The position numbers and the translations under genes are program-made. The notes under the pieces are model-generated. The model did not search any database. It was not told where the DNA came from and worked only from the letters and a program-made list of their open reading frames with translations. This document shows, piece by piece, positions 10,605-33,751 of a stretch of 34,046 nt of DNA (within the stretch, counting starts at the first letter, position 1; each line of letters begins with the position of its first letter). Source of the stretch: Synergistaceae bacterium (GTDB taxonomy: Bacteria; Synergistota; Synergistia; Synergistales; Synergistaceae); assembly GCA_030533085.1 (NCBI GenBank), contig JAUNJZ010000029.1, positions 1-34,046 of the forward strand. Reading direction: 5' to 3'.

Positions 10605-10712
10605 TAACATCCCTCGCCTTCCCGCAGGTCTCCTGACTTCCGTTTCCGGTCACAGTGGCGGGGCCGCTGCGGTTTCGCACCGCATTCCCCCATGAGAGGC
10701 GCAATCTATTTA
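10605..10712 (-). promoter_or_regulatory. Cobalamin (adenosylcobalamin-type) riboswitch
   Basis: The minus strand holds the conserved core: GGGGGAATGCGGTGCGAA, GCAGCGGCCCCGCCACTGTGA, then GGAAGTCAGGAGACCTGC (the B12 box). The outer GCGCCT/AAGGCG pairing may close the core. It lies about 100 bases upstream of btuF and controls the whole btuF-to-tonB unit. The promoter is not clear. TATCAT near 10726-10731 (complement) is a weak -10 candidate. Confidence 0.93.
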
Positions 10713-10809
10713 CAGGCTATATGATAGCATAAAGCAGACGAAAAATAATAAAAAGCCGCGGCGCACTTTACGCCTATTTTAATAGCGCGCGCGGCGTAAA
10801 AAAATGTAT

Positions 10810-28317: not shown

Positions 28318-29982
28318 TTATTGCTTCTTCAGCACGCCGCCCTCTACTCCGCTGGTGGCGAAGGCGCGGTAGCGGTTCAGGAACGGGCTGTCTGTCTCCT
28401 GAACGTGGGGGGTGAATTTTTTCCGGCGTTCTTCCAGCGTCTTTTCTGAGACGAGAAGATCCAGCCGCTTTTCCGGTATGTTGATGGATATCTCGTCCCC
28501 CTCCTCAACGAGCCCTATCGGGCCGCCGACAGCCGCCTCAGGCGATACGTGCCCTATCGCCGCGCCGCGCGTCGCCCCTGAGAATCTGCCGTCCGTAATA
28601 AGCGCGACTGTGCCGCCCTTGCCCTGTCCCATAATGGCGGAGGTGGGGGCGAGCATTTCGCGCATTCCGGGGCCGCCCTTCGGCCCTTCGTAGCGTATCA
28701 CCACGACGTCGCCGTCGTTGATTTTGTTCGCCATGATCGCGGCGCTGGCCTCTTCCTCGCAGTTGAAGACGCGCGCCGGCCCTTTGTGGACGAGCATTTC
28801 CGGCGCTACGGCCGCCTGCTTGACTATCGCTCCGAGCGGGGCGAGCGTCCCCTTCATGAAGGCCAGCCCCCCCTCCTTGTGGTGCGGGGCGTCGAGCGGG
28901 CGAATGACTTCCGCGTCCGTCACCTTCGCGCCGGCAACATTTTCCGCCGTCGTCGCGGCCGTGACCGTTATCGTTTCGCCGTTTATCAGACCTGCCTCCA
29001 GCAGCTGCGCCATGAGCGCCTGCACGCCTCCGGCGCGCCACAGGTCTTCTATGTGGTGAGCGCCGCCGGGGCTCATCGAACAGAGATGCGGGACCTTCGC
29101 GCCGATTTCGTTGAAGATGTCAAGCGACAGATTCAGCCCAGCCGCCCACGCGATGGCGGGCAGGTGCAGAGCCGTATTTGTCGAGCCGCCGAGCGCCAGG
29201 TCAACCGCGACGGCGTTTTTGAAGGCCTCCGCCGTGAGTATGTCTCGCGGGCGGATATTCTTCTCCACAAGCTTCATTATCGCGCGTCCGGCGTCTTTCG
29301 CGAGGCGGATGCGTCCGGCGTGTACGGCGGGGATCGTTCCGTTTCCGGGAAGTCCCAGCCCCAGCGCCTCCATCATGCAGTTCATGGTGTTGGCCGTGAA
29401 CATGCCGGAGCAGGAGCCGCAGCCGGGGCAGGCGTTGTCCTCTATGTCGCGGAGCGCCGCGTCGTCTATCTTTCCCGCGCCGCGCTGCCCCACTCCCTCA
29501 AATACGCTGTTGAGGTCGAGCGTGCGTCCGTTGTGCTGTCCCGCCATCATCGGGCCGCCCGATATCACGACCGCGGGGAGATTCAGCTCCGCCGCCGCCA
29601 TCGCCATGCCGGGGATTATCTTGTCGCAGTTCGGCACGAGGACAAGGCCGTCCAGCGCGTGGGCGCGGGTCATAACCTCTACGGAGTCCATGATCAGCTC
29701 GCGGCTCGGCAGGGAGAATTTCATCCCCTCGTGGTTCATCGCGATCCCGTCGCAGACGCCGATTACCGGAAATTCCACCGGCAGGCCGCCCGCCGCGTAT
29801 ATGCCGGCCTTCACCGCCTCCGTTATCGTGCGCAGATGCACATGACCCGGTATCACGGCGTTATAGGCGTTCGCGACGCCTATCCACGGGCGCTCTATTT
29901 CCCAGTCCGTATAGCCGGCCGCTTTAAGGAGCGAACGGTGCGGGCTGCGCAGATATCCTTTTTTCGCTTTGTCGCTGTTCAT
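28318..29982 (-). CDS. ilvD: Dihydroxy-acid dehydratase
   Basis: A 554-residue Fe-S enzyme that dehydrates 2,3-dihydroxy-isovalerate and its isoleucine counterpart to the 2-keto acids. Cluster and metal motifs are present: [22 protein letters not shown] and [18 protein letters not shown]. Family length is normal. The ATG at 29982 is eight bases behind AGGAG; a longer open frame upstream is antisense-like noise in ilvB. It is the last gene of the ilvN-C-B-D unit, 11 bases after ilvB. Confidence 0.95.
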
Positions 29983-29993
29983 CTTATATTCTC

Positions 29994-31682
29994 CTATCCT
30001 ATGGAGCTTACCATGTGGTCTATCGAGTCTCCGGGATAGACCATCGGCAGAACCAACGCCCCCTGCGGTATCCTGACGTCGAGAAGCGCAGGCCCCGGCT
30101 CCGCCAGCAGCCGTTCCAGCGCCCGCGTCAGCTCTTCGGGGCGCGAGACGGCGAAGGCAGGCACGCCCATCGCCTCCGACAGCCTTACAAAGTCGGGGTT
30201 GCGCGTGTAAATCGTATTTGAATAGCGGCAGTCGTAGAAAAGCTGCTGCCACTGGCGCACGTTGCCGAGGCAGGCGTTGTTGAGCAGCACCACCTTCACC
30301 GGTATGTTGTAGCGCGCGCATGTGTCAAATTCCTGTATATTCATCATCAGGCTTCCGTCGCCCGCTATGCAGATCACGGGCTGCTCCGGACAGGCGTAGG
30401 CCGCGCCTATCGCCGCCGGAAAGCCGAAGCCCATCGTGCCGAGGCCGCCGGAGGTGAGGAAGCGGCGCGGAGCCTCAAAGTTGAAATGCTGCGCCGTCCA
30501 CATCTGATTCTGTCCGACCTCCGTCGTAACGACGGCGCTGCCGCCGGTCAGCCCGCGCAGCGTTTCAAGCACCTGCCACGGCGCTATCTCTCCCTCTATC
30601 TCGCCGCGCGGCATAGGCTCCTTTATCCGTATTTCGGCCAGCTCGCGGTTCCATTCGCTGTGGTCGGCTATCTTTTTTCTTATCGCGGCCATGAGCGCCT
30701 CCAACACCCGCGAAGCGTCGCCCACAAGCCAGACGTCCGTCTCGATCGCCTTATCTATCTCCGCCGCGTCCAGATCTATATGGATTATCTTCGCGTCCGC
30801 GGCGAAGCTCTGGCGTTTTCCCGTCGTGCGGTCGCTGAAGCGCGAGCCGATAGCTATCACGACGTCCGCCGCCATCAGCGCGCGGTTGGCTACCGGATGT
30901 CCGTGCATACCGGCCATGCCGAGCGAAAGGCCGCTGGGATGCGACTCGGGGAAGCCCCCCTTGCCCAGCAGCGTCGTAGCCACCGGTATCTCATATTTGA
31001 GCGCGAATTCTGTAAGCAGCTCCGAAGCGCCGGAACGTATGACCCCGCCGCCGGCGAAAATCACCGGGCGCTCCGCGTGCTCGATAAGCGAGACGGCCGC
31101 GTCAAGCTGCGATACGTCGTAGAGATTTTCGGGATGATATCCCATAAAGTCGAGCTGCGTAGAATATTTATAATCCCCCATGCCCTTCTGCACGTCGGCG
31201 GGAACGTCTACAAGCACAGGGCCGGGGCGGCCTGTCGAGGCGATATAAAAGGCCTTGTGTATAGTAGACTGCACCGCGTCGGGCGAATGGAGCTGAAAGC
31301 TGTGCTTTACGAGCGGAAGGCTCGCCCCTACGATGTCCGCCTCCTGAAAGGCGTCCGTGCCTATCATCGTCGTCGCGACCTGTCCTGTTATCGCCACCAT
31401 CGGAACGGAATCGAGATTTGCCGTGGCAATGCCCGTTACAAGATTCGTGGCGCCGGGGCCGGAGGTCGCGATGCAGACCCCCGGCCTGCCGCTCGCGCGT
31501 GCATAGCCGTCGGCCGCGTGCGAAGCCGCCTGTTCGTGGCGCATCAGTATGTGGTTTATTTTGGAATCATAGAGAGCGTCATAAAGATGAATGACCGTTC
31601 CGCCCGGGATTCCGAAGACGGTGCTTACCCCTTCGTCCTCCAGAGCCTTGACCACCATCTGTGCCCCGTTCATTTTCGCCAT
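29994..31682 (-). CDS. ilvB: Acetolactate synthase, large (catalytic) subunit
   Basis: A 562-residue ThDP-dependent enzyme that condenses two pyruvates, or pyruvate and 2-ketobutyrate, in the first common step of branched-chain amino acid synthesis. The activating Glu is in [24 protein letters not shown] and the ThDP site GDGSLMMN...NN are in place. ATG at 31682 is eight bases behind AAGGAG. It is separated from its regulatory subunit gene ilvN by ilvC, which is not the usual ilvBN arrangement. A hairpin lies in the 123-base gap after ilvC. Confidence 0.95.
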
Positions 31683-31759
31683 CTGTACTGCTCCTTTTTC
31701 GTTTTTTTGCTTTCCTCCCGTCATTCGCGGCGAGCGGAAATATCAGACTCTGAAAGCCA

Positions 31760-31805: not shown

Positions 31806-32831
<1,026 letters not shown>

Positions 32832-32883: not shown

Positions 32884-33372
32884 TTAATCTCCGAAGCCGG
32901 CCCTTGAAAGCGCCACCTGACCGGAGCCGGCCGTCTCCAGAATGCCGTAAGGCTTCAGCGCCTCCATGCAGGCCTCGACCTTGCCGCGGTCGCCCGTCAC
33001 CTCGAGCGTGATCGCGTCGGAGCCGAGATCCACCACGCGGCAGCGGAAAATCTCCGCCGTCTGTAAAATATGCGGCCTCCGCTCCACCGGCGCCATAACC
33101 TTCACCAGAGAAAGCCAGCGCTCGACGAAAGGCCCCTCCCTGGTGAGATCCCTCACCTCGACCACCTCTATCAGCTTCGTAAGCTGCTTGCGAATCTGCT
33201 CGTAAGCCCCCTCCTCGCCCTCGATGATGACGGTGAATCGGGACAGCCCCGGAACGTCCGTCCGCCCTACGCTGAGGCTTTCGATGTTGTATCCGCGGCG
33301 GTATATGAGATTTGCTATACGCATAAGCACGCCCGGGTTATCTTCGGATACTATGCTGAATGTACTCTTCAA
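32884..33372 (-). CDS. ilvN: Acetolactate synthase, small (regulatory) subunit
   Basis: A 162-residue protein with an N-terminal ACT domain (FSIVSEDNPGVLMRIANLIY, RRGYNIESLSVG) and the C-terminal ALS-small domain. It confers valine feedback on IlvB. The start is TTG, as deduced from the conserved N-terminus; AAAGGGCG lies upstream. It is the first structural gene after the attenuator. Two GC-rich hairpins lie in the 96 bases between terminator and start. Confidence 0.93.
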   Translation of the reverse strand: MKSTFSIVSEDNPGVLMRIANLIYRRGYNIESLSVGRTDVPGLSRFTVIIEGEEGAYEQIRKQLTKLIEVVEVRDLTREGPFVERWLSLVKVMAPVERRPHILQTAEIFRCRVVDLGSDAITLEVTGDRGKVEACMEALKPYGILETAGSGQVALSRAGFGD

Positions 33373-33468
33373 TCTGAAAACGCCCTTTCTCTGATTACTT
33401 GCCGGAGGAGCGCGCCCTCGCGCCGCCTCCCGCTATCCTCTCCGCCGCCGGAGAGAGCCTTGGCCTAT

Positions 33469-33505
33469 AAAAAAAAGACCGGAACCCCTCTCGCGGGTCC
33501 CGGTC
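33469..33505 (-). terminator. Attenuator terminator of the ilv operon
   Basis: On the minus strand GACCGG and GGG/CCC segments (33495-33505 with 33477-33487, one mismatch) form a long stem with seven-base loop, followed by eight T's (complement of 33469-33476). It stands 18 bases beyond the leader peptide stop and before ilvN. Confidence 0.9.
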
Positions 33506-33522
33506 CGATAGTAACGCGGCTA

Positions 33523-33609
33523 TTACGCGCCGGTCACTTCGGGGGACCCGCTGCTAATAACGACGACGACTATCCTTGTTACGTTGTTTATAAAGCTCTC
33601 TCTTCGCAT
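33523..33609 (-). CDS. ilv operon leader peptide
   Basis: A 28-codon frame: MRRESFINNVTRIVVVVISS, then GSPEVTGA and stop. The consecutive Ile-Val-Val-Val-Val-Ile codons in front of a terminator in an ilv operon are the signature of ribosome-stalling attenuation. When charged Val or Ile tRNA is short, the ribosome stalls and alternative RNA pairing prevents termination. GAAGGGG upstream is a plausible ribosome site. The codons just after the Val run contain CGGGTCCC (complement of 33543-33550), which can pair perfectly with GGGACCCG in the terminator (complement of 33494-33501). Confidence 0.85.
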   Translation of the reverse strand: MRRESFINNVTRIVVVVISSGSPEVTGA

Positions 33610-33670
33610 TGCCGCCCGCCCCTTCGACGCCGGATTAAGAGGCCGAAGCCCCTTTCGCATATTACGCTAC

Positions 33671-33699
33671 ATAATAAAAGCACTTTCCGTAAATGTCAA
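33671..33699 (-). promoter_or_regulatory. Promoter of the ilv operon
   Basis: The minus strand reads TTGACA (complement of 33694-33699), exactly 17 bases, then TATTAT (complement of 33671-33676): a near-consensus promoter. Start near 33664, giving a leader of about 290 bases to ilvN. Confidence 0.85.
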
Positions 33700-33751
33700 C
33701 AGATTTTTTTGATATTTCGCGTCGATGTCAGCGGCCGAAGAAAAGCCGCGC

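Follow-up and report, generated by a model that had tools for sequence, protein, structure and literature searches.

A short reading frame rich in Val and Ile codons, followed by a terminator, precedes ilvN in a Synergistaceae genome and raises the question of whether the ilv operon is controlled by ribosome stalling on a leader peptide. We examined this locus in the window, that is, the whole 34,046-nt stretch of DNA analysed. The operon has the order ilvN-ilvC-ilvB-ilvD on the minus strand, as do all leader features below, which lie 5' of ilvN. Its first gene, ilvN (acetolactate synthase small subunit, 32884..33372; NF008864 and TIGR00119 above cut-off), has a TTG start at 33372 and is followed by ilvC (ketol-acid reductoisomerase, 31806..32816), ilvB (acetolactate synthase large subunit, 29994..31724) and ilvD (dihydroxy-acid dehydratase, 28318..30015). 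The sequence immediately 5' of the ilv promoter encodes the last part of a protein that carries a Synerg-CTERM sorting domain (TIGR04564; 33804-34028, minus). The window also contains a TPP riboswitch (2559-2663, plus) and a cobalamin riboswitch (10606-10747, minus).

Elements of the ilv leader

The promoter combines a -35 box TTGACA (33694..33699) with a -10 box TATTAT (33671..33676) across a 17-nt spacer, matching the consensus at 11 of 12 positions. From these boxes the transcription start is predicted near 33664. The Shine-Dalgarno-like AAGGGG (33619..33624) has the leader ATG 9 nt downstream, and the leader ORF (33523..33609) encodes a predicted 28-codon peptide, MRRESFINNVTRIVVVVISSGSPEVTGA; homologous ORFs were found in 74 distinct sequences. 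Its codons 13-18, ATA GTC GTC GTC GTT ATT (33556..33573), specify IVVVVI, and these tandem Val/Ile codons are kept in relatives. At least six consecutive V/I/L codons in a short ORF occurred in 15 of 5000 shuffles of the leader region (0.3%). Between the leader ORF and ilvN there is an intrinsic terminator, a 12-bp hairpin (33476..33506) ending in a T8 tract (33469..33476). The promoter, the 28-codon peptide with IVVVVI and the terminator with eight T's, all claimed in a preliminary description of this DNA, were thus confirmed.

Intrinsic terminators are missing from some actinobacterial leaders (PMC1262725), and a leader of this kind could instead work through Rho-dependent termination or by acting on translation. 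The 12-bp hairpin with T8 in the window argues against such a mechanism, as does the T tract found at a similar distance after the leader in nearly all homologous leaders, and we regard it as highly unlikely.

An antiterminator hairpin embedded in the reading frame

Folding of the leader revealed a second, 23-bp hairpin (33493..33551). Its 5' arm (33551-33529) is the end of the leader ORF, its loop (33528-33521) contains the leader stop codon, and its 3' arm (33520-33493) overlaps the terminator, taking nine bases of the terminator 5' arm. Since positions 33501-33493 are shared by the two stems, base pairing of this antiterminator excludes the terminator. The predicted folding energy of the antiterminator hairpin is -40.0 kcal/mol versus -23.8 kcal/mol for the terminator, and none of 200 dinucleotide shuffles of the antiterminator region folded as well (z -6.6). 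An eight-base match between leader and terminator had been proposed earlier; the pairing is real, but its true length is 9 bp (GCGGGUCCC:GGGACCCGC) and it lies within the 23-bp hairpin (33551-33493). The leader sequence GACCGG does recur in the terminator, as had been noted in support of alternative folds, and the best fold places the leader copy in the antiterminator arm.

The antiterminator is supported by covariation. Among 31 sequences, 15 of the 23 pairs had changed on both sides, and 82% of cells were paired, a level reached by none of 500 shuffles. When one strand was slid by 1-3 bases as a control, pairing in the same 31 sequences fell to 34-52%. Pairing stood at 93% in 14 close relatives. 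Divergent leaders retain it with other letters, as with GGGCTCC:GGAGCCC in one sequence (L067) versus GGGTCCC:GGGACCC in the window. When 42 representatives were folded singly, the antiterminator region beat shuffles in most (median z -3.5) and in 40 of them exceeded the terminator in stability. The terminator alone showed modest covariation, its paired percentage being reached by 37 of 500 shuffles.

Conservation across Synergistota

We surveyed leaders in the sequence 5' of ilvN at retrieved loci. The ilvN domain was present in 127 of 188 Synergistota genomes, and 74 distinct sequences, spread over many family-level groups of Synergistota, had a homologous leader 5' of ilvN. Their ORFs are mostly 20-40 codons long, and most end in variants of SxGSPxxxGA after the V/I/L run; this peptide tail may be conserved because it is encoded within the RNA helix. 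Promoters scoring 10-12 of 12 (TTGACA/TAnnnT type) lie 5' of 71 of the 74 leaders, and mononucleotide shuffles gave a score of 10 in 6 of 370 cases and none higher. Attenuation appears to be old and widespread in Synergistota. The leader was missing from all four ilvB-first operons checked (three genomes of genus g38 and G090). Tandem duplicate ilvN genes were seen in two genomes (G139, locus L120, and G140), and the leader tail at L120 is unusual.

The frame, the start, the V/I/L run and the ribosome-binding site of the leader ORF are all conserved among relatives. Differences numbered 566, 214 and 651 at codon positions 1, 2 and 3, respectively, with V, I and L exchanged for one another. Lack of conservation of the leader codons had been named beforehand as an observation that would speak against attenuation; the V/I/L runs are conserved phylum-wide and the antiterminator covaries, so the proposal stood.

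The strength of the terminator, together with other cis-acting RNAs in the window and the genome, could suggest that the terminator is simply constitutive or that the leader is a metabolite riboswitch, the ORF being incidental either way. However, the ORF is conserved in the features listed above, with differences falling chiefly at codon positions 1 and 3, the antiterminator arm falls inside it, and no Rfam family matches the locus. We consider this explanation extremely unlikely. The preliminary description had added that a T-box might have been expected in this lineage. T-boxes were indeed found in 135 of the 188 genomes, with five matches elsewhere in this genome, but none was found at the ilv locus: the T-box model (RF00230) matched nothing in 33360-33720 at E values up to 10, and no family of Rfam 15 reached its gathering score at the ilv leader of the window or in eight relatives. 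A T-box or riboswitch at the ilv leader was ruled out as a candidate on this lack of a covariance-model match. Probable attenuators and T-boxes occur in the same phylum, so a single genome allows the two RNA solutions to be compared.

Ribosome position and the proposed mechanism

The effect of a translating ribosome was modelled by removing the bases it covers and refolding the RNA, with coverage of 12 nt ahead of the A-site as an assumption. In this model the antiterminator kept its full -40.0 kcal/mol for A-site positions I13 to V16; its energy was -35.7 kcal/mol at V17, -25.2 kcal/mol at I18 and -2.2 kcal/mol at the stop codon. A modelled ribosome at the control codons thus leaves the antiterminator intact and one at the end of the ORF blocks it. 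The full energy through V16 and its loss beyond indicate that the control codons sit where the ribosome front just meets the helix. The elements of the leader, their conservation, the covariation of the antiterminator and this register between codons and hairpin are observed, and on this basis the ilvNCBD leader is very probably a ribosome-mediated transcription attenuator of the classical type.

We propose the following mechanism. RNA polymerase would start near 33664 and a ribosome would begin on the 28-codon leader. A shortage of charged tRNA-Val or tRNA-Ile would stall the ribosome at codons 13-18, with its front just before the antiterminator 5' arm. The 23-bp antiterminator could then fold ahead of synthesis of the terminator 3' arm and capture the terminator 5' arm, and transcription would go on into ilvN. 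With ample Val and Ile, the ribosome would enter the antiterminator 5' arm, which encodes SGSPEVTG, and melt the antiterminator; the terminator would form and transcription would end at the T tract. The stalling, the kinetics and the regulatory response are our inference from this architecture.

For five of the seven modelled leaders, equilibrium folding favoured the terminator together with a shortened antiterminator, even when the ribosome was still upstream. Full-equilibrium folding therefore fails as a predictor of the ON and OFF states in these five, and the switch there must be kinetic, decided before the terminator 3' arm exists. A protector hairpin was not identified in the ilv leader, and the naked leader RNA of the window favoured the antiterminator in the model. 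Untranslated window transcripts should accordingly read through, an expectation that differs from the E. coli trp model. One report counts against attenuation: as cited in PMC1262725, mutation of the control codons in a similar-looking Streptomyces coelicolor ilvB leader left regulation unchanged.

Codon specificity and leu genes

The absence of Leu codons from the leader peptide had suggested sensing of Val and Ile only. This holds in the clade of the window, but most relatives use Leu codons too. Where leu genes follow ilvNC, 38 of 39 operons have leaders with at least two Leu codons, versus 5 of 19 operons lacking leu genes (Fisher p = 1.5e-8 over genomes, where kinship reduces the pattern to two Leu-codon losses on the ilvC tree). 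With only two independent losses, a phylogenetic sign test is powerless; the association is therefore suggestive only and was set aside as independent evidence. The leader in the window, without Leu codons, fits its operon, which is without leu genes.

Eleven relatives have a stand-alone leuA, and in each of them a leader combining a run of Leu codons with a terminator lies upstream of it, as in TISLLLLGCRFPPGTPAA*. Three of these leuA leaders, L200, L201 and L202 (genomes G093, G095 and G098), have Leu runs with a differing tail (ADSLFF...) and a hairpin region that looks dissimilar. A leuA gene above the curated family cut-off was not found in the clade of the window. The genome under study has a divergent LeuA-like gene (G000 C70) preceded by a T-box with a possible CUC specifier (L188:5950-6320) and followed by a fused xylose-isomerase-like/AMP-ligase gene. 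Because of this LeuA-like gene behind a T-box, the idea that the leucine pathway was lost in this clade was not upheld; leucine synthesis is possible and we do not claim auxotrophy.

A probable wider family of leaders

A search with a covariance model of the ilv leader gave two further candidates in this genome, with weak scores (24 and 37 bits). A candidate Ile-only leader with a terminator precedes porC, the 2-oxoacid oxidoreductase gamma subunit gene (G000 C52:5254-5363, L211:1501-1610; encoding MLRSISNQNIIIIIINAAPPRGIGA; NIIIIIINAAPPRGIGA*), and porC-type Ile leaders were also seen in about 20 retrieved relatives. A candidate Met-codon leader with a terminator precedes a metQ-like lipoprotein gene (G000 C71:35458-35565, L210:1501-1608; MYMMMRGGCGSLPDLAGV*); Met leaders were read in eight genomes, this one and seven relatives. 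To our knowledge, methionine-codon leaders are uncommon, and our literature search for them found no paper on the subject. Candidates built like the ilv leader were also found in another genome, one Val-rich before panB (L215; G122 C4) and one Phe-rich (FFFSFFF) before an SBP_bac_3 gene (L213; G122 C14). Elsewhere, the model also returned candidate V/I/L leaders ahead of ilvC and of genes for DctP and an SNF transporter.

These leaders probably form one homologous attenuator family across Synergistota. Copies of one RNA chassis, made up of the promoter, an ORF ending like SxGSPxxxGA, the coding-embedded antiterminator and the terminator, would have come to lie before different genes and would differ only in their control codons. 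These codons would be V/I/L at ilv-leu, Leu at leuA, Ile at porC, Met at metQ, Val at panB and Phe at an SBP_bac_3 gene.

We also considered that the leader may be a general translation sensor, in which any slowing of the ribosome near the hairpin leads to read-through and the V/I run is weakly amino-acid specific. In the model, the structure by itself ties read-through to ribosome position, and Val, Ile and Leu codons interchange among relatives. Against this, the identity of the codons tracks the gene behind the leader: Leu with leuA, Val with panB, Phe with SBP_bac_3, Met with the metQ-like gene and Ile with porC. A general sensor is thus very unlikely in our judgement. Under attenuation by specific codons, leaders that look homologous and sense an amino acid that varies with the gene could be used to trace gains and losses of amino-acid sensing. 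They could also predict the substrates of unassigned transporters, such as those behind Met or Phe leaders, and serve as re-codable switches.

Comparison with known systems

In E. coli, the ilvL (ilvGMEDA) and ivbL (ilvBN) leaders combine a Val/Ile(/Leu)-rich leader peptide, a terminator and an antiterminator before a branched-chain amino acid operon. The Synergistota leader shares a Val/Ile-rich peptide, a terminator and an antiterminator with them. Its peptide is different, however, and the E. coli leaders have several segments with a protector hairpin, none of which was identified in the Synergistota leader. Like the proposed attenuator, the T-box (RF00230) responds to tRNA charging at the RNA level and is able to switch a terminator; in contrast to the attenuator, it binds tRNA directly without translation.

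Leader-peptide attenuation is known mainly from Proteobacteria and Actinobacteria, with some cases in Firmicutes (PMC2965389, PMC9413887). The class of mechanism is therefore already known, and an ilv attenuator in Synergistota is apparently undescribed. Our literature search, which covered the main texts of openly accessible papers and may thus have passed over an earlier mention, found no description of one, and the main text of Stav et al. 2019, who analysed Thermovirga lienii, does not contain the term 'ilv'.

The actinobacterial leuA uORFs (LEU element, PMC1262725) resemble the Synergistota leuA leaders in having runs of Leu codons before leuA. A pseudoknot involving the ribosome-binding site has been proposed for the LEU element, whereas the Synergistota leuA leaders have an intrinsic terminator. 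The closest described systems, compared by description, are the Corynebacterium ilvB leaders. The Corynebacterium ilvBNC attenuator, or ilvB-II motif (PMC10272879, PMC11857589), likewise has a short uORF rich in Ile, Leu and Val codons, a U-tract terminator and an antiterminator formed jointly from uORF and terminator sequence, all 5' of acetolactate synthase genes. By published lengths, the Corynebacterium uORF is usually 15-17 codons compared to 28 in the window and mostly 20-40 in its relatives. By published description, its first gene is ilvB and a third, antiantiterminator hairpin has been proposed. The Synergistota leaders differ from it in their single long antiterminator hairpin, which spans the end of the ORF, and in a peptide tail of SxGSPxxxGA variants.
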